DNA of 64,000 bases, taken from Fischerella sp. CENA71 (GTDB lineage Bacteria; Cyanobacteriota; Cyanobacteriia; Cyanobacteriales; Nostocaceae). The notes beneath the pieces were generated by a model. That model was not told where the DNA came from. It saw only the letters and a program-made list of their open reading frames with translations, and made no database searches. A program made the translations under genes and the position numbers. Shown piece by piece: positions 14,173 to 55,326 of this stretch (positions within the stretch are counted from its first letter, which is position 1; each line of letters starts with the position of its first letter). The stretch spans positions 434,001-498,000 of the forward strand of contig JANBVI010000064.1 of assembly GCA_024239075.1 (NCBI GenBank), in the 5' to 3' direction.

Positions 14173-15033
14173 ATGAAAAAGCAAAAAAATCAATTTAGCC
14201 ATCTCACAGCTATCGAAAGAGTTTATCTATCAGTCCCGACAAATTTTTTATTAGATAAAAATTTGCTGCAAGGTAAAGTTCTAGACTTTGGTTGTGGGTT
14301 TGGCAATGATGTTAAATTATTACGAAAAAAAGGATTTGATATTACAGGTTACGACCCTTATTATTTCCCTGAATATCCGAAAAATAAATTTGACACAATC
14401 ATTTGCATTTATGTTTTAAATGTTTTATTTCCTGAAGAACAAGCAAATGTTATCATGGAGATTGCACATTTATTAAAACCGGGAGGTAAAGCTTATTATG
14501 CAGTGAGAAGAGATATCAAAAGAGAAGGTTTTCGAGAACACTATATCCATAAAAAACCAACTTATCAATGTATTGTTAAACTTCCTTTTAAATCAATTCA
14601 ATTAGATGAATCTTACGAAATTTACGAATATAAACATTATAATCTCCAGAGAAATTCTTCTAATAATTGCATATTTTGTAATCCTTACAAACACCTCACA
14701 GTAGTAACTGAGTCAGCAACAGCCTATGCAATGTTTGATGGTTATCCTGTGAGTAAAGGTCATGTTTTAATTATCCCAAAACGCCATGTGAGTAATTATT
14801 TTGAGCTACCATTTAAAGAGCAATCTGCTTGTTGGTTGATGGTTAATAAAGTGCAATAACTTCTCAACCAAGAATTTGCACCCGACGGTTTCAATGTAGG
14901 AATAAACATCAACCGAGATGCAGGTCAAAATATGATGCACACCATTATTCATATTATTCCACGCTATAAAGGTGATACTGTTGGTGCTAAAGGTGGCATC
15001 AGAAATGTGATTCCAAGAAAAAACAGTTTGTAG
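14173..15033 (+). pseudogene. broken class I SAM methyltransferase-HIT domain fusion
   Basis: The reading frame encodes a methyltransferase (residues 1-150; motif I VLDFGCGFGNDVKLL, then YDPYYFPEY and LLKPGGKAYYAV). It is joined to a HIT domain (CIFCNPYKHLTVV, MFDGYPVSKGHVLIIPKRHVSNYFEL). A TAA at 14857-14859 interrupts the HIT domain after MVNKVQ. Reading on in the same frame gives LLNQEFAPDGFNVGININRDAG, then HTIIHIIPRYKGD and a natural stop at 15033. The family motif H-x-H-x-H has Ile in place of the middle, nucleophilic His. Methyltransferase-HIT fusions exist as a known architecture. Here the first 228 residues could still give an active methyltransferase. It is either a decaying gene or a sequencing error; the missing His favours decay. 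Confidence 0.75.
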
Positions 15034-16233: not shown

Positions 16234-18822
16234 ATGACAACCTCTCAGGAGAGGATTATCCCTACAGATCTGCGAAACGAAATGTCCAGGTCTTACCTGG
16301 AGTATGCCATGAGCGTCATTGTTGGACGGGCGCTACCAGATGCCAGGGATGGTCTGAAACCTGTCCATCGGCGTATCCTCTACGCTATGCATGAGTTGGG
16401 GTTGACCTCAGATCGTCCTTTCCGTAAATGTGCGCGTGTTGTGGGGGAAGTTTTGGGTAAATATCACCCCCATGGCGACACAGCAGTGTATGACGCCTTG
16501 GTGCGGATGGCACAGGATTTTTCCATGCGATCGCCTTTAATTGCAGGGCATGGTAATTTTGGCTCTGTAGATAACGACCCTCCGGCGGCCATGCGTTACA
16601 CCGAATGCCGCTTGGAAGCTTTGACTAGCGATGCTCTCCTGCAAGATATCGAGTCAGAAACCGTAGATTTTGTTAACAACTTCGATGGTTCCCAGCAAGA
16701 ACCGACTGTGTTACCCGCACGAGTACCACAGTTGTTATTGAATGGTTCTTCGGGGATCGCTGTGGGGATGGCAACCAACATCCCGCCCCATAATTTGGGT
16801 GAATTGATTGATGGGTTAGTAGCACTGATTCACAACTCAGAAATAACTGATACTCAATTGATGCAGTATATCCACGGCCCTGACTTTCCGACAGGTGCTC
16901 AAATTCTTGGTACTGCGGCGATTAAAGAAGCTTATACCACTGGACGTGGTTCTATAACCATGCGTGGTGTAGCAAATATTGAAACTATCGAAATGCGGGG
17001 ACGCCCAGAAAGGGAAGCGATTATCGTCACCGAGTTACCGTATCAAACCAACAAAGCAGCATTAATTGAGAAAATCGCCGAGTTGGTAAACGACAAGCGC
17101 ATCGAGGGAATTGCCGACATCCGAGATGAAAGCGATCGCGATGGGATGCGAATTGTGATCGAACTCAAGCGCGACGCCTATCCCCGTGTAGTTCTGAACA
17201 ACCTCTACAAGCAAACGCCCCTACAAGCTAATTTTGGGGCGAATATGCTGGCGTTGGTCAACGGTGAACCCCAGATCCTCACCATCAAGCAGTTTTTACA
17301 AGTATTTCTGGATTTTCGTATCGAAGCGATCACCAGACGCACCCAGTACGAACTGCGGAAAGCCGAAGAACGTGACCATCTCTTGCAAGGGTTATTAATC
17401 GCCCTATCTCACCTCGATGAAATCATTGCTTTAATTCGCCACGCTGCTGATACACCAACAGCCAAAGGAGAATTAATCACAACTTACGGACTATCAGAAG
17501 TGCAAGCAGATGCCATTTTACAAATGCAACTGCGGCGCTTAACAGCCCTAGAAGCAGATAAAATCCGCCAAGAACACGAAGCATTACAAGCCCAAATCGC
17601 CGACTTGCAAGATATTTTGGCAAGGCGAGAACGGATACTGCAAATTATCGAAACCGAAATCCAGTATCTCAAAACCAAATTTGCTACACCTCGGCGCACG
17701 GTAATTACTCACGGTGAAGGCGACTTAGAAGATATAGACCTAATCGCCAACGAAAAAGCGATCATTTTAATTACCGAACAAGGCTATATCAAACGGATGC
17801 CGGTCAACACCTTTGAAGCCCAAAACCGTGCTACCAGAGGTAAAGCAGCAGCCAAAGTCAAAGAAGATGATGGCGTCGAGCATTTCTTAACCTGCTGTGA
17901 CCACGATAGCCTGTTATTCTTTAGCGATCGCGGCGTAGTTTACTGTCTCAAAGCCTACCAAATTCCCGTAAGTTCCCGTACCAGCCGCGGCACACCGATT
18001 GTGCAGATGTTGCCAATTCCTAAAGAAGAAAAAATTACTTCCATCGTACCCGTCAGTGAGTTTACCAGTGATGAGTATTTGGTCATGCTCACCAAAGGTG
18101 GCAACATCAAGAAAACCGTATTGGAAGCGTTTAGTAATATTCGTGCCAACGGCTTAATTGCCATTTCCCTAGAAGAAGGCGATCAACTGCGTTGGGTACG
18201 ACGGGCAAAAGTCGAAGACAGCGTGATCATTGGTTCCCGTGAAGGTATGGCGATTCACTTCCGTTGTAACCATGAACAACTGCGTCCTCTGGGTCGTGCG
18301 ACTCGTGGTGTCAAAGCCATGAAACTCAAAGCCAAAGATGAACTAGTCGGAATGGATATTCTACCCGCAGCTGTTCTAGATAATTTGGCTCCCATCTCAG
18401 AAGCCGAAATCGAAGCCGAAGAGATCGAAACTGAAGAGATCGAAACTGAAGAAACCGCAGAAGTACCAGGTAACGGTCATGAAGGACCATGGGTACTGGT
18501 AATTACAATTGGAGGTTACGGTAAACGTGTACCCGTTGCTCAGTTCCGCTTGCAAAATCGGGCTGGTCAAGGTTTAATGGCAACCAAATTCAAAAACCGC
18601 AAAATTAAAGACCAACTAGCCAACCTACACATTGTCAACAACGACGATGAAATTATGATGGTTACAAGTCGCGGTATCATCATCAGACAGGCAGTAAATG
18701 CAATTTCCGTCCAATCCCGTTCTGCCACAGGAGTACGTGTACAACGTCTAGATGAAGATGATGTAATTACAGGAGTAGCGATCGTTCCCCCCGATACTGT
18801 TGATGCGACAGAAGCAGAGTAA
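16234..18822 (+). CDS. gyrA: DNA gyrase subunit A
   Basis: This is the 862-residue breakage-reunion subunit of DNA gyrase, which introduces negative supercoils together with GyrB. The quinolone-resistance region [10 protein letters not shown] has Thr at position 83 and Asp at 87 (numbering coincides with E. coli). The catalytic Tyr is Y122 in PPAAMRYTE. The coiled-coil tower follows. The C-terminal beta-pinwheel shows the repeated R-x-T-R-G-K/V blades ([34 protein letters not shown]). An unusual acidic insert of short EEIET repeats lies within the pinwheel near residues 718-745. Its 3' end overlaps the start proposed for lnt. Confidence 0.95.
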
Positions 18823-20473
18823 TAAAAGACACGGGGACAAAGAGACACGGGGACGCGGGGAAAGCTTTACTCTCCGCCTCCGCGCGTCTCCATTTTTGCG
18901 TTTCGCGATCGCCCTATTTAGTGGTATTTTGATGGGGCTAACTGTCGCCCCCGTCAATGCTTGGTTTTTAGGATGGTTCGCCTTAGCGCCTTTATGGTTA
19001 TTAATAGTTGATTCTGCAAAATCAAAATTCCCATTTCTCCCCATCTCTCTAGCTTGGGGTATTGGTTATCACGGTCTAGCCCTATCTTGGATCACAGGAA
19101 TTCACCCCATGACTTGGATGGGGGTTCCTTGGTTAGCAAGTTTGGGAATAGCTATTTTTTGTTGGGTATTCATCACTCTCTGGGGTGCTGCATCTGTGGC
19201 AATGTGGGCAACAGGGATGAGAATTATTTGTGATTCTATCCCACAACCCTACGGCCGTGTTCTGATTGGCACTGCCTTGTGGTGTGGTGTAGAGACTATC
19301 TTGAGTTGGGGAGCCTTATTTTGGACTTCTATTTCATACACCCAAAGTCCATATAATCTTGTAATTTTGCATCTTGGTCAACTTTCGGGTCCCTATGCCG
19401 TAACAGCTGCGATCGTCGCCGTCAATGGGCTGATTGCGGAAGCTTGTATCAACCGCAGAGGCGCAGAGAACGCAGAGAGAATTTCCTCTGTGTTCTCTGC
19501 GCCTCTGTGGTTTGTTAATAAATATCTCATCAGCGCCACGGGGTTACTAATTAGCCTACACCTGATAGGTTTTTTCTTATACACTCCTCCCCTAGTACAA
19601 CCACCAGCAGCAGCCCTGAAGGTCGGAATTATTCAAGGTAATATTCCTAACCAAATAAAACTTTATCCAGAAGGCTTACGTCGGGCTTTAGAAGGCTATA
19701 CTACTGGTTATTTAAGCTTAGTAGATCAAGGAGTAGAGGCTGTACTGACGCCAGAAGGAGCCTTACCTTTCTTTGAGAGTAATATTATACATAGTTCCTT
19801 GGTGGCAGCAGTGCGATCGCAAGGGGTAGTAGCTTGGATTGGCGGTTTTGGACACAAGGGAAAAAGTTATACAAATAGCTTGCTGACTGTCACAGGAGAT
19901 GGTAAGTTATTTAGTCGTTACGACAAGGTGAAGTTAGTACCCATTGGTGAATATGTGCCGTTTGAAAACCTTTTAGGCGGTATTATTAGTCGCTTGTCGC
20001 CACTGGATGAACACCAAGTTCCTGGTTCACCAAATCAAATTTTTAACACACCTTTTGGTCGTGCGATCGCAGGTATTTGCTATGAATCTGCTTTTCCTGA
20101 AGTATTTCGCTATCAAGCTCAAGCAGGCGGACAGTTTATTCTCAGCTCATCTAATGATGCTCATTACAGTGCATCAATGCCAGCCCAGCATCACGCCCAG
20201 GATATCATGCGGGCAATTGAAACTGATAGATGGGCAGTACGGGCGACGAATACAGGATATTCAGCTTTTGTAGATCCCCACGGGCGAACAAAATGGATTT
20301 CGGGACATAATACTTACGAGATTCACGCTGAAACTATTTATCGCCGTCAGACACAGACTTTATATGTGCGTTGGGGTGATTGGTTAACGCCGTTGTTATT
20401 AGTATCAGCTGGGGGAGTATGGCTGGTCAATTTTTTGATTGTCCAACTCTCACGCAAGCAGGGGTTGAACTAG
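18803..20473 (+). CDS. lnt: apolipoprotein N-acyltransferase
   Basis: This membrane enzyme adds the third acyl chain to lipoproteins. An N-terminal block of about six membrane helices is followed by a nitrilase-like periplasmic domain. The catalytic triad appears as Glu in LTPEGALPF, Lys in [16 protein letters not shown] and Cys in [11 protein letters not shown]. The start is uncertain. The ATG at 18803 overlaps gyrA by 20 bp, and its first 25 or so codons are repeat-derived ([13 protein letters not shown]); an internal Met at 18932 (MGLTVAP) is too late for the first helix. A 62-bp palindrome is embedded in the frame at 19451-19512, adding about 21 residues. The 3' end overlaps the convergent gene at 20427. 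Confidence 0.9.
19451..19512. repeat. palindromic repeat inserted inside lnt
   Basis: Arms at 19451-19477 (AACCGCAGAGGCGCAGAGAA then CGCAGAG) and 19486-19512 are almost perfectly complementary. The family 'GAGGCGCAGAGAACGCAGAG' normally lies between genes in cyanobacteria; here it is translated in frame as [20 protein letters not shown]. It sits between a membrane helix and the catalytic domain, a place likely to tolerate extra residues. Confidence 0.9.
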
Positions 20474-21014
20474 CAGTAGGGGGATCAGGGTAAATTGCCA
20501 AAGTATGATATTGGGGAGAGCCAGTATCATAGACAATTTCAAAGGTGTATAACTTGTTTTTTCCGCTTTCTTCAGTAACTACTGTTAAAAGTGTTTTAGC
20601 AGCATTAGGTAGACCAGGAATATTTATTTTCTTAATTCGCCTGAGTTGAATTACATGTGCTGCGGAGTTTTTACAATCTCCGGCGTTGTTATTGCGATCT
20701 GGACCAAACTGCATACACATCGGCCCATCAAAATCCATTGTCACCTGGGATGGGTCATTTAACCAAACTTTTTTAATTGTTTCTCCAGATGGAATAAAAC
20801 TTAAATTTGTTCCTTGCTGAAACCAGACATTAATAGTAGGTGTTGCTCCTCCTAAACCTTGCGCTTGACAAGAAAACATAGAGCGGAGAACAGCATTATT
20901 AGCCAAGGCACGACCTGCTACCATAATGATTGCAGCAGAAAAAATTAGAGAAGCTAGAGTTAATAAATACGAATTTTTTGGGGGTTTGAATTGCAGGTTA
21001 ATGTGATGTTTCAT
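20427..21014 (-). CDS. VirB9/TraK-like secretion channel protein
   Basis: This is a 195-residue exported protein with an N-terminal hydrophobic segment (LTLASLIFSAAIIMVAGRALA). The core reads NLSFIPSGETIKKVWLNDPSQV, later VIQLRRIKKINIP, then LLTVVTEESGKNKLYTFEIVYD. That order (beta-strand opening, 'G-E-x-I-x-x-V-x-x-x-D-P-S', then threading to 'T-x-L-T-V-V-T...Y-x-F') is characteristic of VirB9/TrbG/TraK components of type IV secretion cores. It is the last gene of the minus-strand operon, directly after the VirB10-like gene (125-bp gap). The match is by eye only. It is shorter than classical VirB9 (about 290), so a TraK-like or truncated N-domain form is possible. Confidence 0.6.
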   Translation of the reverse strand: MKHHINLQFKPPKNSYLLTLASLIFSAAIIMVAGRALANNAVLRSMFSCQAQGLGGATPTINVWFQQGTNLSFIPSGETIKKVWLNDPSQVTMDFDGPMCMQFGPDRNNNAGDCKNSAAHVIQLRRIKKINIPGLPNAAKTLLTVVTEESGKNKLYTFEIVYDTGSPQYHTLAIYPDPPTASSTPACVRVGQSKN

Positions 21015-21139
21015 ATCATGTCTGCTTGAACACTTATACTATGCAGTTGAGGTCGGTAATTGGTAATGGATAATGGGTAATTGGTAATGACAAATGACGA
21101 TCTTCGCCAGTAATTATTACTGTCCCGACCCACTTGATA

Positions 21140-22765
21140 TTAAAGCTGCATGGTTTGATTGATATATATTTCTATTTCTTTTCCTGCTGGTAAAAACCAA
21201 ATATTGGTGCGTTGCATTGCTTGAGAAATTGCCTGTTGATTACGCTGGGTAATTTGGGGAACTACTGTTTTCACACCACCTTCCAAAATCCCAGCGAAGA
21301 GATTACGTTGGGGATTGCTGTTGGTAACAACAGTACCTGTAGAAGTGGTAGTAACTTGGGATTCTGTACGATTAAATAATTCTGCGGCTTTACCAATCCC
21401 TCCCAATACAAATTGTTGAGCATCAATCATGGTAGTGGATGTTCCTTTTTTATATTGGTTGGCAACTAGAGGTTTACCTGCTGAGGCACGAATGAGGATG
21501 GCGTTTTGTGGTAAGCTTTGCTCTGTCAAGTTGCCATTGTTTTCCCTGACTACTTTGACTACATCTAACTGCACCAAACCTTGTTCAGAAATAGAACTAA
21601 CTTGAGCCAAAAACTCAGTTTTTTCTGGTAAAATAATCTCACCATTTGTTGATTTTAATGGTTCTTTTAAGCGAACTACAAAGACATTTTGAGGACTGTC
21701 ATCTTTCTTATTATTGTTTGTTGCTCTACTAGTTTCTCCAAAGACAGCAGTAGCTAATACAGCTTTTACACTGGTTCCTACTCTTACAGACTTCGGACTA
21801 TTTGGTTGTGCTTGACTAACAATAGAACTTGGTGGTTTTGGGGTATTATCCTGGGATTGAGAGTTGGCTGTTTGTGGCGGATTTTTTGTATTTTGTACAG
21901 GTATAGGTACAGAAGTTGGACGATTTACATTGGTATTATTGGTATTATTAGGTGTAGCAACGGCTAAAACTTGACCATAGCTACCCAGTTTTGATAATCT
22001 TGCCCATTCTTGCAAGGGATCTGGTGTGGGTTGGGGAGTGAATTGAACTGTTGGTTGAGTTTCTGGTGTGGGAACTACAGGTAGCGGTGAAGTCGATTGC
22101 GGTGGGGTTTGGGGTACTGTGACGATCCGCGTGACTACCCTTGGCGGCATGTAAACTGTTTTTGTAGGTGTAGGTGTTGTTTGTAAAGCAATTTTGGGTC
22201 TGTTATTTCTGGAATTTGCTAGCTCAGAAGTTGGTTGTGCTGGTATGACTTTTGGAGTTCTTAGCTGTTGCTGTGCTAATTTCACAGCTTGCGCTTGTTC
22301 AGCTAAGGCTAATTTTGTTTTTAAAGTCTCTACTTCTCCTTCTAGTTGTTGTAAGCGCGTCTCAGTCGTTGTTTGCGGCGTTTTTGGTGAAACGACATTA
22401 GCTTTTCTAGGTTTTTGATTGCTAGCACTCATCAGCTGTGATAAAAAAGCACCAGCCACTAAAACTAAAGCAAAAGTGGTAGTTCCTACAAAGGCTAATT
22501 TCGCAAAAGGATTTGATGAGAGGGATTGCTTGGTGCTAACTTCTGGTGGTGGAGAAGGTGAAGATGGCTGTGGTAAGTTGGCTACATCTTCCTCTGCTTT
22601 TGCTTCTGTTTGTGTTTCAATGGTTGGAGACTCCTGTTCAAAGCCAACCAATTTTGCCATTTGCAGTTCCCAATCAGATAATCCTAGTTCCGGTTGATAA
22701 TTCTCATGGAGCGGAGTATCTATATTTTCTGGGTGAGTTTCTGAAGGAATAGAATATCGAGTCAT
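21140..22765 (-). CDS. TrbI/VirB10-like core complex protein
   Basis: This 541-residue protein has the VirB10 layout. There is a cytoplasmic N-terminus (1-85), one membrane helix (about 88-112, FVGTTTFALVLVAGAFL), a short coiled coil (LQQLEGEVETLKTKLALAEQ) and a long Pro/Thr/Gln-rich periplasmic linker (170-330). A C-terminal beta domain with VRVGTSVKAVLATAV, EIILPEKTEFLAQV and the final FLPAGKEIEIYI matches the TrbI/VirB10 fold. VirB10 spans the envelope and opens the outer-membrane pore in response to ATPases. It follows the VirB8-like genes by 25 bp, as expected for an operon. Confidence 0.85.
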   Translation of the reverse strand: MTRYSIPSETHPENIDTPLHENYQPELGLSDWELQMAKLVGFEQESPTIETQTEAKAEEDVANLPQPSSPSPPPEVSTKQSLSSNPFAKLAFVGTTTFALVLVAGAFLSQLMSASNQKPRKANVVSPKTPQTTTETRLQQLEGEVETLKTKLALAEQAQAVKLAQQQLRTPKVIPAQPTSELANSRNNRPKIALQTTPTPTKTVYMPPRVVTRIVTVPQTPPQSTSPLPVVPTPETQPTVQFTPQPTPDPLQEWARLSKLGSYGQVLAVATPNNTNNTNVNRPTSVPIPVQNTKNPPQTANSQSQDNTPKPPSSIVSQAQPNSPKSVRVGTSVKAVLATAVFGETSRATNNNKKDDSPQNVFVVRLKEPLKSTNGEIILPEKTEFLAQVSSISEQGLVQLDVVKVVRENNGNLTEQSLPQNAILIRASAGKPLVANQYKKGTSTTMIDAQQFVLGGIGKAAELFNRTESQVTTTSTGTVVTNSNPQRNLFAGILEGGVKTVVPQITQRNQQAISQAMQRTNIWFLPAGKEIEIYINQTMQL

Positions 22766-22790
22766 AATAAAGCTTTAGTTTATAGTTTAA

Positions 22791-23468
22791 TCAGGAGCAG
22801 TTTTTATCTTTGATGTCGCATATATTGTAGATTTCTAGTCTAGCTTCACCGATTCGGTAAGCTGCTATATGCCAAGATAGTGGTAGATCAGGTAATGTGA
22901 CTTTTTGATTATCGATTGCTTGGATTAAGATTTGTTTATTGAATGCGATCGCTTTCCCTAATCTATCAGAATTATTAAATATTAATTGATTCCCTTGTAA
23001 CTCTACTTTCCATTTGCCATTAGTAATTTTTACAGGTTGAGAAATTCTTTGAATAATAAAAACACTTTCAGCACCGCGATTCGCAAATTGGTTTACTGTA
23101 TTTGGATTAATAATTTCGGATTGAAATTTTTGCTTGACTTCATTTGTTAAAAGCTCTGAACTAATTTCCCATATTGTTTCGGGCGATTGTTGTTGAGACC
23201 AGGTTAGCATTAAGGTCATTGTTTCACCGACGAAACGCCGGATGGTGTCTGGATATCGTTCTAAATTTTGCCTCGGATCTGCTGTAATCGCACGACCATC
23301 AGCAAGTTGTACTAAACTTTGAGGAGTTAATTGCTTACTTAGCTGTTGCAACATAGAACCGTGGAACATTAGTATGAGCAATGCAAAAATATTTAAACCA
23401 AAAGTTCCAACAGCAAACAATGGTAATATACTACTTTTCTTTTTATTTTCTTGTTTAAGTAACTGCAT
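22791..23468 (-). CDS. VirB8/TraE-like inner-membrane protein (paralogue A)
   Basis: This 225-residue protein has a short basic cytoplasmic end, one membrane helix (residues 15-36, LFAVGTFGLNIFALLILMF) and a periplasmic domain. That is the topology of VirB8/TraE scaffold proteins. It is a paralogue of the neighbouring gene: LVQLADGRAITADPRQN...PDTIRRFVGETMTLMLTWS matches FVQLINGQAITVNDDLERDPEVIRQFVSKSMTSMFNWS. The C-terminus has three Cys (NICDIKDKNCS). The family assignment rests mainly on topology and operon position. Confidence 0.6.
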   Translation of the reverse strand: MQLLKQENKKKSSILPLFAVGTFGLNIFALLILMFHGSMLQQLSKQLTPQSLVQLADGRAITADPRQNLERYPDTIRRFVGETMTLMLTWSQQQSPETIWEISSELLTNEVKQKFQSEIINPNTVNQFANRGAESVFIIQRISQPVKITNGKWKVELQGNQLIFNNSDRLGKAIAFNKQILIQAIDNQKVTLPDLPLSWHIAAYRIGEARLEIYNICDIKDKNCS

Positions 23469-23539
23469 GAGTTAATTCTATAAAATAAATTTCATATGGA
23501 TGAAATACCGACAAAAGTCTAATTATCTTATTCTTATTC

Positions 23540-24364
23540 TTACCTCACAAAGCTGTCTGATTGTGTTTCAATTCCACACTGCCGTAATTGCTCCTGACTT
23601 AAACTGTTATATTGATCTAACAGACATAAATTACGGATTTCGTAAATTTCTAATTTTTCAGATCGCATACTATAAATTGCTTTTTGCAAAACGCTGGAAG
23701 TATCATCTAGCGGATAAGGAAAATAATCGACTGCTTGTACAAGTAAATCTTTATTGAAGGGAATAATTACTTTTCTCCCATCCGATTTTTTGGTTTGGAT
23801 CAAGTCAGCGACTAAACCAACTCGCCACTTACCAGGTTTAATTTTTTGCGGAGGATAAACCCGCTTAATAACTATTTGTGCATTTATGGCTTGGCTAGAA
23901 TTATTAGCGAAAACTTCTGGTGGTGTCATCGCTGCTATTTCACTTAAAAAACCTTTGCGAAAATCTTCTGAGATCGCAAAGCTAGCAATCCAACTACTAG
24001 TACTAACTTTTTTGCTATTCCCTTCAGGTGTTGGTATAAATATGCCTAAATCTGGTTTAGGTTTGGTTACTTCTTCAACATTTTGTGGTGGAAGTTTACC
24101 AGACCAGTTAAACATTGAGGTCATACTTTTACTGACAAATTGGCGAATTACTTCTGGATCTCTTTCCAAATCATCATTCACAGTGATTGCTTGACCATTG
24201 ATTAATTGTACAAAGGAGGCGGGTTTTCTCAGACTCAGCTGACGAATTTTTAAACCTTGGAATGCTAATAAAAATAAAGCTAATAATTGCAATCCGAAAG
24301 TTGCGATCGCAAATGTAGTCAAAAGACTAACTGTTCGCTGCTTTTTCTCTAATAGGCGTACCAT
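23540..24364 (-). CDS. VirB8/TraE-like inner-membrane protein (paralogue B)
   Basis: This 274-residue protein has a basic N-terminus (RLLEKKQR), a membrane helix (residues 12-36) and a periplasmic domain homologous to the next gene's product, with a 40-residue insert (PKPDLGIFIPTPEGNSKK). Its start codon shares one base with the stop of the upstream VirB6-like gene, so the two are translationally linked. Two adjacent VirB8-like genes suggest a heteromeric scaffold. Assignment is by topology and context. Confidence 0.6.
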   Translation of the reverse strand: MVRLLEKKQRTVSLLTTFAIATFGLQLLALFLLAFQGLKIRQLSLRKPASFVQLINGQAITVNDDLERDPEVIRQFVSKSMTSMFNWSGKLPPQNVEEVTKPKPDLGIFIPTPEGNSKKVSTSSWIASFAISEDFRKGFLSEIAAMTPPEVFANNSSQAINAQIVIKRVYPPQKIKPGKWRVGLVADLIQTKKSDGRKVIIPFNKDLLVQAVDYFPYPLDDTSSVLQKAIYSMRSEKLEIYEIRNLCLLDQYNSLSQEQLRQCGIETQSDSFVR

Positions 24365-25428
24365 TATATCCTCTCTTTTGCCAACGCATATGTATTACTA
24401 ATTGCATTAAATACTGCAAATCCCCCCGCACCAGCTAAAAGCAAAGATACGATTGGTGCTAAAAGTCCTAAAAAAATCATGAACCACATTAAATCAGGAT
24501 CAGCTGTTGCATCTTCACCAGGACCATTCACAATCACTGTGGCAGTTAAAATTGCAATAATAGTGAAGGAAATTTTGGCAATTCCCAGCGATAAAAATCC
24601 AGTCATCCAAGCAAAAATCGGTTTACCAGCAACAGGTAGCAAAGAACCTCCCACAGCTAATGGTCCCAAAGTCGCTATTAGCAACATCGTAGCTTCGATT
24701 AAATTTTGAAAAGCATATTGTAAGGAAATGAGAAAATTTTTGATACTAGTTTGGACTGTGGAACCTAAAAAAGAATTAAAGGTATTTTCTGATACACCAA
24801 TAGTACTATATGCAATCTGATTAATTTTATTTTCTAATCTACTAATCCAAACTTTATCACCATATAAATCTCTATATGTCTGCCATAGAATATCAGTTTT
24901 TTCTTTGGCTCTCACAAAACATTGATTTTGTTGTTCACCTGTTAATGACTGGCAAGGACGCAGCATAGAGCCAGCTACTTCTTCAGCAACACCCATATTC
25001 AATGCTTGCTGGTAATTTTTATTAGCATCTGCTGTGGTGATTACTTGCTGATTCACTGTGTTAATAAAATTTCTGATTCCCAAAGTAAGATTAGATAGTA
25101 CACTACCACTTCCTGTATTAGTTAGCAGTATTACCACTATAAAAGGCCAAATTAAAGCCGAAATTGGACGGGAATATTCACTGTAAATCACATCTCGAAG
25201 CCATTGTATCATGAAAAACAAAAGGGTGCCGACGGCGAAAAATACACCCAGGTTTGTTAATGCTCCATATAAATTTTCATTAGTATTATTTTGTAATAAA
25301 TCCAACCATTGTTTGTCCCAACTTTCCGAAATTGTTTTCGCGGTCGTGAAACCACTATTGACAATATCGGGGATATCAGGGATGTTAGATTGGGCAAGAT
25401 AAAGATGAGAGAAAATAATAATGTTCAT
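24364..25428 (-). CDS. VirB6/TrbL-like polytopic membrane protein
   Basis: This 354-residue protein has an N-terminal hydrophobic start, then helices near 57-78 and 88-106, a large loop (115-225) with two Cys (LRPCQSLTGEQQNQC), and a C-terminal block of four or five helices (about 235-345). The final block includes LIATLGPLAVGGSLLP, a pattern seen in TrbL/VirB6 proteins, which form the inner-membrane channel. It sits between VirB5-like and VirB8-like genes, the canonical place for VirB6. Confidence 0.75.
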   Translation of the reverse strand: MNIIIFSHLYLAQSNIPDIPDIVNSGFTTAKTISESWDKQWLDLLQNNTNENLYGALTNLGVFFAVGTLLFFMIQWLRDVIYSEYSRPISALIWPFIVVILLTNTGSGSVLSNLTLGIRNFINTVNQQVITTADANKNYQQALNMGVAEEVAGSMLRPCQSLTGEQQNQCFVRAKEKTDILWQTYRDLYGDKVWISRLENKINQIAYSTIGVSENTFNSFLGSTVQTSIKNFLISLQYAFQNLIEATMLLIATLGPLAVGGSLLPVAGKPIFAWMTGFLSLGIAKISFTIIAILTATVIVNGPGEDATADPDLMWFMIFLGLLAPIVSLLLAGAGGFAVFNAISNTYALAKERI

Positions 25429-25517
25429 TTTTTTACTTTTAATTCATCTCTATTAGATGAAATCAAAATTATTCTCTTAACAATGACAAATGATAAATAA
25501 CGAATCACGTGTTCTAC

Positions 25518-26315
25518 TTATTGTTCAAACTGTCTCCCAAATAAATCTACTTGAAAAGTATTGCGTAAAAGTCTAGATGCTTCAGTTGCATTATCAACTC
25601 TGCGAGCGCGATTATTTTCTTCTACTTGTTGGGAAATATTAGTTAAGTTTAAATTAGAGTATTGTAGAAATTGGTTAGTTTGCATTGTTTGTGATAAATT
25701 TTCACCTGTAATTTTTGAAGTTTCCTCTTGGATTTTAATAGATTGTAGAAGTATATTCAGTTGACCTAGGCCTAAAGTAGAAGCAATTTGATTAGCAATA
25801 TTCTTAGCCTCATTTATACCCGGTATACTGTTAAGTTGATTTTGTATTTCCTCTTGAAACTTTTCAGCTTCCTCATTAAATCCTGCGATTTTTTCTATTG
25901 TTCGCTCAGTTTCTTCTAATTTTGTTTTCAATCTAAGTTGTCCATTTGTACCCATTAATCCAGATGCTGCACCACGGGTAATCAAGCGATTAATTTCATT
26001 GCTAACTAAATTCGCCCTCACAGTGGAATTATTATCAAATTTATCGGCTGAGGTATAATACCAAATTGTGCCATCACGGATGATTTCCCCAGCGGCGTTA
26101 GGGTTGGGTATGTTTAATTCTCCGATGGAACTATCAATAGCACTTTGAGCTTCAGATTCTATTGGTTGTAATGTTTCAGTCAGATTATTTCTGAGATAGT
26201 TTTGTAAATCTGTGGCGTAGGATTGAAAATCTGTCCAAACTTGACCTAAATTTGCTGTTGCTGGTAGGATGATGAAAAATGAAAGAGGAATAGAGAAAAG
26301 AATTATTTTTTTCAT
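25518..26315 (-). CDS. VirB5/TrbJ-like periplasmic coiled-coil protein
   Basis: This 265-residue protein has a Sec signal peptide (MKKIILFSIPLSFFIILPATA) and an extended alpha-helical body with coiled-coil potential around 120-170 (LKTKLEETERTIEKIAGFNEEAEKF in part). The body ends with a NISQQVEENNRARRVD helix typical of TrbJ/VirB5 tip or pilus-associated proteins. It lies between the VirB4-like ATPase and the VirB6-like gene, again the canonical order. Confidence 0.7.
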   Translation of the reverse strand: MKKIILFSIPLSFFIILPATANLGQVWTDFQSYATDLQNYLRNNLTETLQPIESEAQSAIDSSIGELNIPNPNAAGEIIRDGTIWYYTSADKFDNNSTVRANLVSNEINRLITRGAASGLMGTNGQLRLKTKLEETERTIEKIAGFNEEAEKFQEEIQNQLNSIPGINEAKNIANQIASTLGLGQLNILLQSIKIQEETSKITGENLSQTMQTNQFLQYSNLNLTNISQQVEENNRARRVDNATEASRLLRNTFQVDLFGRQFEQ

Positions 26316-26498
26316 AATTTATACCAAAAAACTGTGTGCTGAGTAATAAATTTAAAGGTGTCAAATAGAGTTTTATTGATTTACGAACACCGATGCACAC
26401 TGATAGATTTTATCTTTGCATTTAATTTTGTATTAGGCGGCTTTAGTCTTTATGGATAATATTTTCTCTGGCTAAAGCCTTTACTACAAACAAGCAGG

Positions 26499-29243
26499 TT
26501 AACCACGTAGTGTTGCTACTAGTTGACGTGCAAACACCGAAACTGCTTGATATTTGTCTTCGTGTGTTTGCATTGCTTTTTGACGTGCAGATTGTTCTTG
26601 GGGATTGTTAGCTACTACTGCTAATTGTTCATAACCTGGATAGTAGCGACAGAATGTATAAATTCCGTTATCATCTAATAACCATTGGCTATAAATTCCT
26701 TCTTTGCGAGGAAAAAAGCTTTCAGTTGCATTGCGAGCAATGACTTCGCGGGGATATTTGAGTATATTGGTGAAACTATCAACAGCTACTGGCTGAATCC
26801 GCCCAACTAATCGTGTAGTTAAGTTTTGTAAAATTTTTGATGACGCTTTAGATTTGGCGATGGTATCAGGGTCTTGGGCTGATAGGATGACTCTAATTCC
26901 AGCTTTAGCACCGTTGGCACAAATTCTTCCTACTAAGTCAGAAATTTGGTCGAATTCAAACAAAATTGGTGCTTCATCGATGAAGAATATAGAAGCAGGA
27001 CTACTTAAAGCGCGGCGCAATGCTGCGGAATAGGCGCTTAAAGATAGGACTGCTGCGTCTTCATTATCTGCGAGATTTCGCAAAGCGAAAACTAAAAGTT
27101 GGGCGTCAGTGGGAAAACTAGAAGGTGCGGAAATAGCTTGTCCTACCCGACTAGAAAGCCAAAATCGCAAGCGCAACTGAATTTGATTTAAGGCGTCTTC
27201 AACTCTACCTGCAATTGATTCTAATTGTAAATGTTCTGGTGAACAAAAATAGAGAAAATCCCTTAAAGTTGGGGTTTTTTGCCAAGCTGAACTGCCAAAT
27301 CCACCTGCGATCGCTTCTTGATATCGTTCTTTAATGCTTTCATCGGTAAAGAAGGCTCCTAAAGCTAAGTTTAAGAGCGATCGCACTGTTTGCGATAGTA
27401 GCTGACTTTCGGTAGATGATCCCAGAACCATTGTCATCAAGGCTGATTCGAGAAAAGCGATATAATCCAACATGCGATCGCGTTGTTGTTCTGGATTCAA
27501 CAAGCGTAAATCTGGCTGTTCAAATAAGTTATTTGATTGTTTGGAAATATCAAAATACGCTCCATTCCTCTCCATAAAATGTGTATAGTCGGTGAATGTA
27601 GACGTACCATCAGGTTTAGGAAAATCTAATGCAACTACAGGAATTTTATAGGCTAATGCTTGAGTTAAAATTCCTGACACTAATACTGATTTCCCAGCAC
27701 GAGTGGTTGCAAAGAGTGCTAGATTTTTATGTTGGTTGAATAAATCCAGATGGACTGGTGTTCCACCTTCCTCGGCGATTAATTCAAAACCTTGGCGATC
27801 GCCTGCTTTAGTTAATACTAAAGGCATTAATCCTGGTACTTCATTGGTTAAATATAATTGACGTCGGTTAAAAGGTCTTGCTAATAAACTTTCCCAAACA
27901 ATCGGTAAAGTTTGCAACCAGATTTTCCAAGTATATTCTGTTTCTCTAATTACTCGTGCTGGACGCTGAAAACAGTTTTCAATATATCTTGTCGCTTCAT
28001 CTAATTTCTCTACACTCGGACGATGTACCAAGATAGCTATACCTGCATAAATCGGTACTGCTCCCTCATACAATTGTTCTTGGGCTGCTACTGATTTTCT
28101 TAACTTTAATTGGGCGTTAACATCGATGGTTCTACTTTTTTCCTGTGCTAACAAAGCCGTCATATTTGACTGCTTAAGCACTCGTTGTAGTGTAGTTTTG
28201 ACTATAGCTGGATTCGCTGCACTCAACTGACAAAAAATCTCTGTGTCTATAACATTTTCTCTAGCTAGCAGTTCCCAAAGATAACGCAACTGAGCAGATT
28301 TACTTGGCCAACCACCAGGTTTTTCGAGAAAAGTCATGACGCCAATATATTTATTATTGACGTGAACCCAACGCCGATCCGCAGAAGGGACATCAGACTC
28401 AATTAGCAAAGTTGTACTGTGGATATTTTCTATCAGTAATTTAGTACTAGCTAAATCTGAATAAGCTTGTTCATGTAATCCATTTTCATCTAAAGTTAAT
28501 AATTGGGGAATTTCTATTGGTTGAGTGTCATTAAATCTTCTCCAAACTTCTCCCCATAATTCTTCTGTATTCAAAGGCTTAATATCTAAGCCCATTTTGT
28601 TAGATAATAGTTGTTCCCAACGACAAAATCCATTTTTATAGGCGTTAGTAATAATTGTTTCCAGACGTTGATTTTCTACTTCTGCTAAATCACCTTTAAA
28701 TTTCAACCACCAAGTTTCGCCTTTAGCTAATAATTTTTCGATCCAATCATCTGTATTTGTAGCATCTGGCTCAATCGTATAAGTTACGTAAATTCGCAAA
28801 AACTTTGGCTTGCGAATTCCAGAACGTGTGAGTTCTTGAACCCTTGCTCTTTCTGAAATTAATAAATATTTAATATCTGGTGATGGCGTTTTTTTGACTA
28901 AAGATGCTAACTCTTGTTGCCGCTGTTTATCTGAGCTAAACGACCCCAAATGCAAAGTCATTTTTTCGCCTTCAGGGATATCTTTTAAACCAGCTTCAAT
29001 GTTATTGATAATTGTATTGATTTGTTCTGGTCTTAACGTCGTATGAATTCCTTGACAGTCAAAACCAAAAACAAAACAAAACCGATCTTTTTGGTTTCCT
29101 TTCGTCAAAATGTAAGCTCCAATATCGCGTCCTTCTAATGAGACACGTAGCATTGTTGCTAAATGTAAAGCGTCTTCAAAGGGCGTAAATCGTGCTTCAC
29201 TTCCGCCGACGCCGATGCTTTGTTTTCCGATTTTTTGCTTCAT
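26499..29243 (-). CDS. VirB4/TraC-type secretion ATPase
   Basis: This 914-residue ATPase energises assembly of type IV secretion or conjugation systems at the inner membrane. The N-terminal half matches VirB4/TraC in layout. The C-terminal half has Walker A TTRAGKS (Lys near residue 518; the usual first Gly is replaced), DFPKPDG, Walker B IFFIDEAPILFEF (near 754) and the RVILSAQDPDTIAKSK arginine-finger region. I chose the ATG at 29243 (MKQKIGKQSIGVGG), with GGAA upstream. A longer frame from 29303 would add 20 hydrophobic residues lying inside the previous gene. It overlaps the upstream gene by 47 bp. Confidence 0.9.
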   Translation of the reverse strand: MKQKIGKQSIGVGGSEARFTPFEDALHLATMLRVSLEGRDIGAYILTKGNQKDRFCFVFGFDCQGIHTTLRPEQINTIINNIEAGLKDIPEGEKMTLHLGSFSSDKQRQQELASLVKKTPSPDIKYLLISERARVQELTRSGIRKPKFLRIYVTYTIEPDATNTDDWIEKLLAKGETWWLKFKGDLAEVENQRLETIITNAYKNGFCRWEQLLSNKMGLDIKPLNTEELWGEVWRRFNDTQPIEIPQLLTLDENGLHEQAYSDLASTKLLIENIHSTTLLIESDVPSADRRWVHVNNKYIGVMTFLEKPGGWPSKSAQLRYLWELLARENVIDTEIFCQLSAANPAIVKTTLQRVLKQSNMTALLAQEKSRTIDVNAQLKLRKSVAAQEQLYEGAVPIYAGIAILVHRPSVEKLDEATRYIENCFQRPARVIRETEYTWKIWLQTLPIVWESLLARPFNRRQLYLTNEVPGLMPLVLTKAGDRQGFELIAEEGGTPVHLDLFNQHKNLALFATTRAGKSVLVSGILTQALAYKIPVVALDFPKPDGTSTFTDYTHFMERNGAYFDISKQSNNLFEQPDLRLLNPEQQRDRMLDYIAFLESALMTMVLGSSTESQLLSQTVRSLLNLALGAFFTDESIKERYQEAIAGGFGSSAWQKTPTLRDFLYFCSPEHLQLESIAGRVEDALNQIQLRLRFWLSSRVGQAISAPSSFPTDAQLLVFALRNLADNEDAAVLSLSAYSAALRRALSSPASIFFIDEAPILFEFDQISDLVGRICANGAKAGIRVILSAQDPDTIAKSKASSKILQNLTTRLVGRIQPVAVDSFTNILKYPREVIARNATESFFPRKEGIYSQWLLDDNGIYTFCRYYPGYEQLAVVANNPQEQSARQKAMQTHEDKYQAVSVFARQLVATLRG

Positions 29244-29568
29244 GGTTAATTTCCAGTAAGCTTTGATAACGAGCAAAGCCTCTAGTCCAAGTAGGAACAC
29301 CAATAAATTTACTTAAGAAGCGCCAACTTCTACCACCAGTTAAGATCCACCAAGTAGCCATTCCCCAACCAGTAATTAGTAACATCCACAACCATTTTTG
29401 AAACTCATCTTTAAAGAAGCCACCAAAAATTCCATTTATTATGAAGTAGGAAACTAAGGCTATTACCGTCCAAGGTAGAACTTGATCAGCAGGAATGGGG
29501 CCTAGTGAAGGTTGAGCGCCTAAAATTTGATTTACTGGTCGAAATTCTTTATCTGGTTCTTGAGACAT
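29197..29568 (-). CDS. VirB3/TraL-like small membrane protein
   Basis: This 123-residue protein (start at 29568, MSQEPDKEFRPVNQILG) has two close membrane helices (about 33-50 and 62-80), then a cytoplasmic basic tail rich in Lys/Arg (RKTKHRRRRK). A small two-helix protein directly upstream of, and overlapping, VirB4 is what VirB3/TraL looks like. A longer frame to 29691 is unlikely because it would run through the intergenic region and the preceding gene. Assignment is by size, topology and context. Confidence 0.65.
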   Translation of the reverse strand: MSQEPDKEFRPVNQILGAQPSLGPIPADQVLPWTVIALVSYFIINGIFGGFFKDEFQKWLWMLLITGWGMATWWILTGGRSWRFLSKFIGVPTWTRGFARYQSLLEINHEAKNRKTKHRRRRK

Positions 29569-29614
29569 GACTAAATTTATCAGCGATTTTTCATCTTGAT
29601 TTGAGATGAAATAA

Positions 29615-30244
29615 TTATTGTTGATTATTAGTGTTAGAGTCACCAATGACGAAGCCCGTAAGGACATCAGCGATCGTAACTGCAACAACAACTAATAAAG
29701 GAGTTCTAGCAACACTTTGCCAGTCTTCATCTTTACGAACTGCATTAATCACTCCAATGAGGGAAACAGCTATATATAGCAAGTAAAGAGCGCGTAGCAC
29801 ATTAAATATTAAACTAACTGCTGCTTGGGTATTGTTGCCTGTATCTGCACCTTGTGTGAGAGTATTTTTAAAGAAATCTTCTGCTTTTTTAAAAAATTGT
29901 GCTTGTGCTGGTTCTGCCAAATAATCTAACCAGAATAAACTAAAAATTAAAGCGACCCCTAATATTTGCAGCAAAATCATGTATCGCTTTGGTAGCTTTA
30001 CCTCATGCCCAATTTTATGAATGACAACTGTCACTAAACTACCAAACACTAAACAAAAAAGTAAGATAGGACTTTTGAGACTTATCACGCTTAAAAATAC
30101 AGCGCAAGCAATTAGAAATGGAACAGATTCTAATAATCTAATTCGCCATATTTCTAAATTATTACTCAGCTGATAGGGTATAATTGCTGTTCTTTTATCA
30201 AAAAGTCTCATAAACTTTCTCTGATGAGAAATTTGCCTAGACAT
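29615..30244 (-). CDS. VirB2/TrbC-like pilin-type membrane protein
   Basis: This is a 209-residue protein. Residues 1-110 hold hydrophobic helices and end in AEPAQAQFFKKAEDFF, where an Ala-x-Ala site could be cut by signal peptidase. The remaining part has two helices (VLRALYLLYIAVSLIGVI and LLVVVAVTIADVLTGFVIG) separated by a short polar loop, as in VirB2/TrbC pilins. It is the first gene of the operon. The long N-terminal membrane region before the cleavage-like site is unusual for VirB2. An alternative start is the Met at residue 12. Confidence 0.6.
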   Translation of the reverse strand: MSRQISHQRKFMRLFDKRTAIIPYQLSNNLEIWRIRLLESVPFLIACAVFLSVISLKSPILLFCLVFGSLVTVVIHKIGHEVKLPKRYMILLQILGVALIFSLFWLDYLAEPAQAQFFKKAEDFFKNTLTQGADTGNNTQAAVSLIFNVLRALYLLYIAVSLIGVINAVRKDEDWQSVARTPLLVVVAVTIADVLTGFVIGDSNTNNQQ

Positions 30245-30698
30245 TCGTAAATTTCCTTTTTGTGGATTACAACTAAGTTGTTGTCTTCGATATCACAATT
30301 TAACATAAATAAACATTTAATTTAAAAAAATTATCAAATTCAAGGTAAGGTATTATACATTTTATTTGAATGTCAGATGGAGAAACACAATTTATTTAAC
30401 CTCAACAAAATGAATTACACATTCTTCAAGCTTTTCCCTGTTCCATTGCCTCCACTCTTAACTTTAATTTTGCCTATCCACTTAGCTTGGTATTTTACCC
30501 TTTGCAGAAATTAAAATTGCCTTCTTAACTTAAATAACCTGTAGTCTTCTTCTATTGTCGCTGATTAACATTTATTAAAATCATGTAAATTCTCGAAATG
30601 TCAAAATAATCGCTTATTTAACGATCGCTTCACTTGGATTTAACCAGGGATTGATAGATTTCACCTCAAAAGAGTGAAATTGCAAGGATTAAGAACAG
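30245..30698. promoter_or_regulatory. divergent promoter region of the T4SS-like operon and phoX
   Basis: This 454-bp AT-rich gap contains several TTAAC motifs in the phoX-proximal half: TTTAACCT (30395-30402), CTTAACTT (30457-30464) and CTTAACTT with a nearby ATAACCT (30524-30540). Cyanobacterial Pho boxes are built from CTTAACCT-like octamers. The spacing here is not the regular 11 bp, so regulation by the phosphate sensor is only suggested. Confidence 0.35.
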
Positions 30699-32081
30699 GT
30701 GTCTTTCTCACGACGTAAGTTTATATCTCTGGCTGGTGTAACTGCTGCTAGTGTAACAGTGGTTTCCCCCCTAGAAGCCTTCTATGCTAGAGTTGCCCGT
30801 GGTCAAGTTGCAAGGGGAATTGGCTTTGGGGCGTTAGAACCTAAGCTAGCTGTGAATGCAGATGAATTACCAATTATTCAAATTGACGGCAGACCTGTAG
30901 ACTTAAGTAAAATTGAGATCCTACAACTGCCTCCCGGTTTTAACTATACGGCAATATCGATTACGGGTGACTCTATGAATGATGGAGGGAAAGTACCCGC
31001 TGCTCATGATGGTATGGCTGCCTTCCCAGGTCTAAACAGAACTACAATTCTAGTGAGAAACCATGAACTTAACCCTACTTCTAATGGGGTTGCTGCATCC
31101 AAATTGTATGACCAACTTGGGGGAGGCACGACAACCCTGGTTGTTGGTTCTAATCGCCGAGTTATTAAGCAGTTTGCTTCACTAGGAGGAACAATTCGTA
31201 ACTGTGCCGGTGGTCCAACTCCCTGGGGTTCTTGGATTAGCTGTGAAGAAACCTTTAATACAGGTTCGCCTGGTGTCAAGCGTCACGGCTATAACTTTGA
31301 AGTCCCTGCAACATATGACATTGCAGTTGCTGACCCAATTCCTCTTGTTGCGATGGGTCGCTTTAGTCATGAAGCAGTTGCCGTTGATCCAACGACTGGA
31401 TGGGTTTATGAAACCGAAGACAGGGGTGATAGCTGTTTCTATCGTTTCCGCCCTAATCAGTATGGTAACCTTCAAAGTGGTGGAGTACTTGAGGCTCTGG
31501 TAATTAATGGAGCTCCCGCAGATACTCGCAAAAACTATCTTGGATATAAAAATGTACCTTTATCAGTAAGTTGGGTTCAGATTGATAATCCCGATCCGGT
31601 ACGAGAAAATAGAACTGGTGATGTGGTAGCAGGTGATGTAGCAGTTCGCTACCAAGCCCAAGCAAAAGGAGCAGCCATTTTTGCACGTGGTGAAGGTGCT
31701 TGGTATGGGAATGGATTGGTTTACTTTAACTGTACAAATGGTGGTGATGCTGGATTTGGGCAGGTTTTTGCCTATAACCCTAAGGACAACACCATTACTC
31801 TGGTTGTAGAATCCCCAGGACAGAGTGAACTCGATTTTCCTGATAACATTACTGTTTCTCCCTTTGGCGATCTCTTCCTCTGTGAAGATGGTGATGGAGA
31901 CAATTACGTTGTTGGCGTGAACCAGCAGGGCGAACTGTATCAGTTTGCGAAGAATAATATCAATGACAGTGAATATGCTGGCGCTTGCTTCTCCCCCGAT
32001 GGTAATACTCTATTTGTAAATATCCAAACTCCTGGAATTACATTGGCGATTTGGGGACCTTGGACACGTCAACGCAGCTAA
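30699..32081 (+). CDS. PhoX/DUF839-type alkaline phosphatase, Tat-exported
   Basis: This 460-residue protein starts with GTG, preceded by AAGGATTAAGAACAG. The N-terminus SFSRRKFISLAGVTAASVTVV is a twin-arginine signal. The body has the DUF839/PhoX features WGSWISCEETFN, GRFSHEAVAVDP, TGWVYETEDRGDSCFYRF and DNITVSPFGDLFLCEDGDG, consistent with a Ca/Fe beta-propeller phosphatase that releases phosphate from organic esters outside the cytoplasm. It is similar in length to short PhoX forms. Phosphate control is plausible from the upstream TTAAC motifs. Confidence 0.85.
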   Translation: MSFSRRKFISLAGVTAASVTVVSPLEAFYARVARGQVARGIGFGALEPKLAVNADELPIIQIDGRPVDLSKIEILQLPPGFNYTAISITGDSMNDGGKVPAAHDGMAAFPGLNRTTILVRNHELNPTSNGVAASKLYDQLGGGTTTLVVGSNRRVIKQFASLGGTIRNCAGGPTPWGSWISCEETFNTGSPGVKRHGYNFEVPATYDIAVADPIPLVAMGRFSHEAVAVDPTTGWVYETEDRGDSCFYRFRPNQYGNLQSGGVLEALVINGAPADTRKNYLGYKNVPLSVSWVQIDNPDPVRENRTGDVVAGDVAVRYQAQAKGAAIFARGEGAWYGNGLVYFNCTNGGDAGFGQVFAYNPKDNTITLVVESPGQSELDFPDNITVSPFGDLFLCEDGDGDNYVVGVNQQGELYQFAKNNINDSEYAGACFSPDGNTLFVNIQTPGITLAIWGPWTRQRS

Positions 32082-55278: not shown

Positions 55279-55326
55279 CCCCAAATTCCCCATGCAAAAT
55301 TGTTAGTGTTAACTACTAACCAATCT

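Follow-up and report, generated by a model that had tools for sequence, protein, structure and literature searches.

A nine-gene type IV secretion operon

We analysed 64,000 nucleotides of Fischerella sp. CENA71 (contig JANBVI010000064.1, positions 434,001 to 498,000; hereafter the window), in which nine minus-strand genes, running from position 30244 down to 20427, form an operon for a type IV secretion system (T4SS). The original prediction had read these genes as T4SS-like, which is confirmed by hhalign homology to cyanobacterial plasmids of the mating pair formation class C (MPF_C) and by predicted folds. The operon is a resident MPF_C-class T4SS. The gene-by-gene assignments also hold, those of both VirB8-like proteins and of the VirB9-like protein included (hhalign; models matching structures of VirB8 and of the VirB9 N-terminal domain). 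The genes are given below; L, G and C numbers denote loci, genomes and contigs.

29615..30244, minus: B2, VirB2-like pilin with a long hydrophobic leader, 209 amino acids (aa); hhalign to MPF_C plasmid protein L049:12795-13355, E 1.2e-25
29197..29568, minus: B3, VirB3-like, about 123 aa; hhalign to L049:13364-13720, E 1.3e-26 (alignment A7)
26499..29243, minus: B4, VirB4 ATPase; NCBIfam VirB4_CagE, E 8.9e-14
25518..26315, minus: B5, VirB5-like with a signal-like N terminus, 265 aa; hhalign to L049:16749-17465, E 7e-10
24364..25428, minus: B6, VirB6-like polytopic membrane protein, 354 aa; hhalign to L048:17610-18710, E 1.6e-41
23540..24364, minus: B8a, VirB8-like, 274 aa; hhalign to L048:18814-19608, E 3.6e-26
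22791..23468, minus: B8b, second VirB8, 225 aa; AlphaFold2 model (mean predicted local distance difference test score, pLDDT, 63) matches VirB8 structures
21140..22765, minus: B10, VirB10/TrbI-like, 541 aa; Pfam TrbI at residues 328-540, E 2.3e-10, above cut-off
20427..21014, minus: B9, VirB9 N-terminal domain only, with a signal-like N terminus, 195 aa; hhalign E 6.4e-28

B2 is conserved across a 19-row alignment (A6). The open reading frame (ORF) listed for B3, up to 29691, is over-long, and B4 likely starts at 29243 although its ORF opens at 29303. B5 is the weakest of the nine gene calls. B8a and B8b are paralogs (E 8e-42), and VirB4 is the sole ATPase in the operon. Public family models name only two of the nine genes, VirB10 (TrbI) and VirB4 (VirB4_CagE); the others were named by comparison with annotated cyanobacterial plasmids, and sequence-profile searches of the PDB gave no match for B9, B8a or B6. 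B9 aligns with residues 24-154 of a 246-aa plasmid protein of L048 at the E value given above, and its predicted model (mean pLDDT 64) matches structures of the VirB9 N-terminal domain, covering residues 27-141 of the 223-residue Xanthomonas VirB9 chain in structure comparison. The C-terminal domain, which is the outer-membrane cap part of VirB9, was not found in B9, as the protein stops after the N-terminal domain. The VirB9-like call is thereby correct for the N-terminal domain, the C-terminal part being missing.

Homology to the MPF_C apparatus of cyanobacterial plasmids

Judged by profile alignment and gene order, each gene of the operon has a homolog in the MPF_C apparatus with which cyanobacterial plasmids conjugate. 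On Trichormus variabilis plasmid A (L048), which is typed as conjugative, VirB4 is followed by proteins of 239, 366 and 264 aa and TrbI/VirB10, and then by proteins of 246 and 399 aa, VirD4 and a relaxase-domain protein; Calothrix brevissima plasmid4 (L049) shares this order and carries two small genes in front of VirB4. The window proteins match these plasmid proteins singly (hhalign, rounded E values: B2 1e-25, B3 1e-26, B5 7e-10, B6 2e-41, B8a 4e-26, B9 6e-28), and homologs of the accessory set B2, B3, B5, B6, B8, B9 and B10 stand in order on L048 and L049. The plasmid order was assigned to MPF_C from the literature on pCC7120alpha of Nostoc sp. PCC 7120, the reference plasmid of this class (relaxase alr7199, virB4 alr7206, virD4 alr7213; PMC8600333); the homology itself was measured against L048 and L049. 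VirB4 is of the cyanobacterial MPF_C kind: 114 plasmid records matched by tblastn, the ten genera shown being all cyanobacterial, and resident VirB4 grouped with mobile cyanobacterial copies in a tree built without VirB4 from other phyla.

Resident and plasmid systems thus share the order B2-B3-B4-B5-B6-B8-B10-B9 and nine homologous proteins (L048 and L049 compared). They differ in that the resident operon lacks VirD4 and the 399-aa protein, has no adjacent relaxase that we could find, contains two VirB8s, reduces VirB9 to its N-terminal domain, and is chromosomal and largely vertically inherited, with a PhoB-type site at many loci. The same changes appear in comparison with an MPF_C cluster in a genome outside the order (G170, locus L047), in which VirB4 is 65% identical. 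That cluster has one VirB8, a 241-aa VirB9, VirD4 and a protein that is homologous to the 399-aa one but longer and carries a peptidase M23 domain; relative to it, the resident operon contains an extra VirB8 and a shortened VirB9, and lacks both VirD4 and a homolog of the 399-aa protein. The M23 protein of L047 (13294-15003), which follows VirB9 and carries this wall-cutting domain, has no counterpart in the resident operon. The lack of VirB11, noted in the original prediction, may not be a sign of domestication, since 18 proteins scanned from mobile loci (not every gene of those loci) likewise gave no match to a VirB11-type family.

Absence of coupling protein and mobility genes

No relaxase or integrase was found in the window (Pfam on 40 ORFs), nor was VirD4, in agreement with the reading of the locus as a resident operon devoid of mobility genes. 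When the window and 83 loci (L031-L047, L050-L115) were searched by tblastn for VirD4 and the 399-aa protein beside the T4SS, only L047 gave matches. At these other loci, one MobA/VirD2-type, one MOBV and one integrase query, which detect close kin only, gave no match either; a further relaxase query proved to be a DUF3854 protein. At the genome level, VirD4 was absent from 34 of 48 genomes by PF02534, the identical 34 being obtained with an MPF_C VirD4 protein as query, and present in the remaining 14. The window's genome (G000; 99.91% complete, 95 contigs) had no match to PF12696, PF02534 or the MPF_C VirD4 protein. MOBV relaxases occurred in 9 of the 48 genomes, the window's included; there the gene (G000:C74:201051-201620) lies on a contig other than the operon's, in a genome with no detectable VirD4.

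These searches bear on the idea of a standing mating apparatus that would release or transfer DNA by means of coupling proteins and relaxases supplied by plasmids. Some genomes do carry plasmid VirD4 or MOBV relaxases, and the window's genome has a MOBV relaxase on contig C74. However, among genomes with a single VirB4 match confirmed as resident, 30 of 34, including the window's, have no detectable VirD4, and this idea leaves the conservation of the operon there unexplained; the VirD4-less genomes include the one-contig genomes G174, G284, G294, G301, G348, G377, G401 and G428. We consider it quite improbable.

Distribution and residence in the family

In a phylum-wide sample, VirB4 matches were obtained in 32 of 292 genomes. 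Identity reached at least 75% in 16 of them (the window's own included), 15 of which belong to the window's family; the other matches were 29-65% identical. Within the family, 193 of 218 genomes had a VirB4 match, and at least 149 of the 218 (150 rows listed) had one of at least 80% identity, which bears out the resident status that had been proposed. Named holders (46 loci) include Fischerella, Westiellopsis, Chlorogloeopsis, Nostoc, Calothrix, Mastigocoleus and Anabaena. Matches to all nine queries were colinear on one strand at 65 of 82 fetched loci, a count that includes L047, whose single VirB8 gene answers both VirB8 queries, and six second or near-identical copies; for distinct loci the figure is 59/76, L047 included. 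Of the 17 non-colinear loci, seven are apparently truncated where a contig stops; in L045 half of the operon is inverted, and L077 is scrambled.

Also among the 17 are the Calothrix-type loci, L064 and L046, where the nine-query scan gave no B9. There is no resident-type B9 at the locus in L063, L069, L071, L073, L074 and L076 of the Calothrix type, nor in G174 and G133. At the genome level, seven genomes of one Calothrix-type genus had only weaker B9 relatives (at most 44% identity) or none, and no relatives were found in G174 and G133. The VirB9 domain seems dispensable in these cases. L045, from a genome of another family of the order (G133), has a VirB4 about 80% identical that groups with G292 of the window's family; its half-inverted operon was probably acquired by transfer. 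In Richelia intracellularis (contig CBZS010000852, L089) the genes are short (B2 17 aa, B3 73, B4 458, B5 108, B8a 131), and the operon looks as if it were decaying, draft errors being possible.

The window's operon is flanked on one side by

16234..20473, plus: gyrA (16234-18822) and lnt (18800-20473), convergent flank (Pfam)

and gyrA-lnt adjoin the operon in distant genomes too. VirB4 lies 7-18 kb from gyrA, i.e. within 20 kb, in 11 of 36 genomes; the remaining genomes have the operon at other places. As the 11 linked genomes fall in several gyrA clades, gyrA and lnt are probably ancestral neighbours of the operon. The synteny expected in the original prediction was thus recovered in part; a universal gyrA-lnt linkage was rejected (11/36 only).

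Elsewhere in the window, a 228-aa ORF (14173-14859) combines a methyltransferase domain with a partial HIT domain, an unusual combination or a frameshift join, and two serine/threonine protein kinase genes stand side by side at 53932-56649.

Descent and selection

A tree of seven concatenated operon proteins was compared with a gyrA tree for 36 genomes. The two share 14 of 33 splits, whereas 1000 label permutations gave 0.15 shared splits on average and 3 at most. Among gyrA splits, 9 of 11 with support of at least 0.95 and 11 of 22 with at least 0.8 recur in the operon tree, and all conflicts with support of at least 0.95 on both sides involve G133 or G170, both outside the family. The operon thus broadly follows the gyrA tree, indicating largely vertical inheritance.

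Pairwise ratios of nonsynonymous to synonymous substitution (dN/dS; Nei-Gojobori, no significance test) among six close relatives (L050-L055) and for the first six of ten Nostoc pairs were 0.04-0.06 for VirB4 and 0.08-0.12 for B6, the remaining seven genes ranging over 0.02-0.41. Walker A and B patterns were found in 78 of 78 VirB4 orthologs of at least 850 aa. Together, these values indicate that the operon is under purifying selection. Domestication probably took place early in the history of this heterocyst-forming cyanobacterial family.

An integrated conjugative element in decay would account for the loss of VirD4, the 399-aa protein and the C-terminal part of VirB9, and for the short genes in the Richelia contig. 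Yet the genes are mostly full-length, the Walker patterns and VirB4 dN/dS are as just given, and the operon occurs in most of the family; an element or plasmid remnant was rejected on the selection data and the tree, and we give this explanation hardly any weight. The dN/dS values also touch on the proposal of a system acting as a surface pilus alone, in adhesion or aggregation, as Trw does in Bartonella. VirB2 and VirB5 are retained, and dN/dS is higher in B5, B2 and B10 than in the other six genes, as is often seen in surface parts. Retention of a full trans-envelope set including VirB6, VirB8 and VirB10 argues against it, and such a role appears unlikely.

PhoB-type sites upstream of the operon

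Beyond the MPF_C class, what is new relative to the original prediction is a set of PhoB-type sites. Repeats of TTAA at 11-bp steps upstream of B2 were first noticed in an alignment. The cyanobacterial PhoB box is an 8-bp repeat with 3-bp spacers (PMC1906773), and in Synechocystis the TTAA cores have been verified by electrophoretic mobility shift assay, mutation of any of three reducing or abolishing PhoB binding (PMC11126600). We tested 73 upstream regions, each 300 nt long (six duplicates having been removed from 79), in which related loci are not independent. Three perfect TTAA cores with an 11-bp period were present in 30 of 73 regions (dinucleotide shuffles: mean 0.06, maximum 1), and at least 11 of 12 core bases in 43 of 73 (shuffles: mean 1.84). 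Perfect sites were absent at periods 6-10 and 12-15 and occurred once at period 16; with at least 11/12 bases, other periods gave 0-10 regions out of 73, as against 43 at period 11. Other AT words yielded no such site at period 11. In all 30 regions with a perfect site, it starts 162-193 nt ahead of the B2 start codon. Control regions upstream of 258 other genes from the same loci yielded 3 perfect sites, one of them at phoX, and 13 with at least 11/12 bases, 9 of which precede phoX and serve as a positive control. Among mobile-type loci none of 11 reached 11/12, compared with 13 of 16 resident loci; these promoters were oriented by strand, and a motif check of the orientation worked for 16/16 resident and 1/8 mobile loci.

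Twelve four-core sites lie no more than 350 nt upstream of B2, and another lies 470 nt upstream in L101. They are also found at pstS and ppk, where the loci were chosen for having the motif, so that these matches are a sanity check and not an independent count. In a scan of five whole genomes, the places with at least four cores were, on our reading, pstS (G284), ppk (G000) and this operon (G468, G472). The ppk site is a four-core TTAA site (G000:C9:144958-144994) upstream of the polyphosphate kinase gene, and the pstS site has five cores (G284:C1:2950714-2950761). A three-TTAA motif also lies 118 nt upstream of purF (G472:C1:5847780), with a similar motif in G284, G401, G468 and G000.

In the window, the operon is flanked on its B2 side, upstream of B2, by

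30618..30654, strand not applicable: PhoB-type site near phoX, TTAA/TTCA/TTAA/TTGA, 11-bp period (scan of intergenic 30245-30698)
30699..32081, plus: phoX, PhoX alkaline phosphatase, divergent neighbour (Pfam PhoX, E 2.9e-79)

The site beside phoX is the only good one in the intergenic region; it has 11/12 bases in its first three cores, lies about 374-410 bp from the B2 start, and a like site precedes phoX in relatives. Three or more TTAA-core 8-bp repeats with 3-bp spacers, as in the PhoB (SphR) regulon, are thus found upstream for the ortholog group but not at the window's B2. These data provide good sequence evidence for phosphate control of the operon in many members, in which it would presumably be induced by phosphate starvation.

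The position of phoX invites the idea of a two-step exporter like Ptl, in which proteins such as PhoX or nucleases would reach the periplasm by Sec or Tat and be carried across the outer membrane by the T4SS under phosphate starvation. VirD4 is absent, PhoX has a twin-arginine-like signal (SRRKF, read directly from the sequence), and phoX adjoins the operon in more than one arrangement, being divergent in the Fischerella-Chlorogloeopsis clade and upstream on the operon's strand in L064 and L084. On the other hand, most of the 82 loci have no phoX neighbour, the adjacency may mean shared regulation only, and the operon contains no conserved cargo gene. Export of this kind is doubtful, although it deserves more credit than a pilus alone.

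Proposed function

Phosphate control would favour a nutrient role. Tentatively, and at less than even odds, the operon may be a conjugation machine turned phosphate-scavenging organelle that pulls in extracellular DNA or exports phosphatases at low phosphate. The leading reading, to which we assign a probability of roughly 35%, is DNA uptake of the ComB kind by a resident, PhoB-controlled and VirB4-driven T4SS. The inner-membrane part would consist of VirB6, VirB8 and VirB3, the periplasmic ring of VirB10 and the N-terminal domain of VirB9, and a pilus or pseudopilus of VirB2 and VirB5. With no VirD4 gate, DNA or protein would not be taken from the cytoplasm in the manner of conjugation. In the family core, PhoB (SphR) would switch the operon on at low phosphate, and a VirB4-driven pseudopilus would draw extracellular DNA through the outer membrane as in Helicobacter ComB, the imported DNA being used by ComEC or by periplasmic nucleases and phosphatases. 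The analysis shows the homology, the residence, the selection, the lack of a detectable VirD4 and the PhoB-type sites; induction, the pilus, the direction of transport and the cargo are what we infer. DNA uptake is ranked first on three grounds: ComB also works without VirD4, Synechocystis can use DNA as a phosphate source, and natural transformability has been reported for Chlorogloeopsis fritschii PCC 6912, a holder of the operon (L056) (PMC7690421). In this inferred ranking PhoX export is nearly as likely, and a pilus is a near competitor too.

Several observations weigh against DNA uptake under PhoB control. ComEC is present in 52 of 52 genomes, in keeping with uptake, but does not separate operon holders from non-holders. 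Type IV pili are the usual route of DNA uptake, and most of these genomes have them: PilM was found in 48 of 52, namely in 24 of the 26 operon holders and as many of the 26 non-holders, so type IV pili have no discriminating power. In both the ComEC and the PilM counts, two holders (G449 and G476) are not confirmed resident by identity, and six non-holders do match VirB4, though the match is weaker, of mobile type or partial. The operon persists in G300 and G301, which have no PilM match, and is therefore probably independent of type IV pili. Counts of three-core sites across genomes do not exceed the reversed control (5-16 versus 12-18 per genome), and several of these sites adjoin genes with no phosphate link known to us; the case for PhoB therefore rests on position, period and conservation. 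When loci were clustered at 90% VirB4 identity, 7 of 23 clusters had a perfect site and 11 of 23 one with at least 11/12 bases. A proximal PhoB site is missing at B2 in the window and in the group of loci to which it belongs, and likewise from many loci beyond the core of the family; Chlorogloeopsis fritschii PCC 6912 has the operon without a good proximal site. ComB itself has no VirB5, whereas the resident operon has B5, and VirB11 (ComB11) is now reported for ComB (PMC13395361).

If the phosphate link holds, it offers a concrete reason for keeping a conjugation machine. It would also bear on the passage of phosphatases across the cyanobacterial outer membrane, and on DNA uptake by filamentous cyanobacteria, which a review describes as very scarcely recorded (PMC7690421).

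Comparison with known systems

The operon is a real, resident and strongly conserved MPF_C variant that has no detectable coupling protein in most genomes tested. In the open literature (subscription papers, preprints and supplements lay outside the search) we recognised no paper describing it as resident or phosphate-regulated. T4SS genes without a relaxase were described as MOBless T4SSs by Guglielmini et al. in 2011, with cyanobacteria among the environmental holders; the available part of that paper names no such locus and has nothing on family-wide presence or regulation (PMC3158045). A relative in another order (Chroococcales) lies on the 880-kb replicon Cy782201 of Gloeothece verrucosa PCC 7822 (L031). 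Its VirB4 is 74.9% identical, VirD4 was not found, and gene sizes suggest two VirB8s, as in the resident operon; it differs in a permuted order ending B10-B2-B3-B4, and three upstream regions tested contained no PhoB-type site of at least 11/12. Upstream of L031 lie further co-directed genes, two of them with no Pfam family at E 0.001.

VirD4-less T4SSs include ComB, which takes up DNA, Ptl, which exports a toxin, and Trw, which binds host cells (PMC12857230). The resident operon resembles Ptl of Bordetella pertussis and Trw of Bartonella in the lack of VirD4; unlike it, both are host-associated. Ptl and Trw are of an MPF class other than MPF_C, and we know of no phosphate link for either. Helicobacter pylori ComB consists of VirB2-4 and VirB6-10 without VirD4 (PMC12857230); equivalents of VirB2-4, 6 and 8-10, the missing VirD4, the chromosomal location and conservation are common to both systems. 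ComB is MPF_T (PMC13395361), and DNA uptake is proven for ComB only. VirB4 is present and VirD4 absent in both, but as a B5 homolog is present, the resident operon is not classed as ComB.

T4SSs retained in the normal genome have, to our knowledge, been studied mostly in pathogens. Here, a resident T4SS is found in most examined genomes of a large free-living family, under purifying selection and, in many of them, with a PhoB-type switch. If our reading is true, this T4SS would be wired into nutrient acquisition and not into conjugation, virulence or killing.

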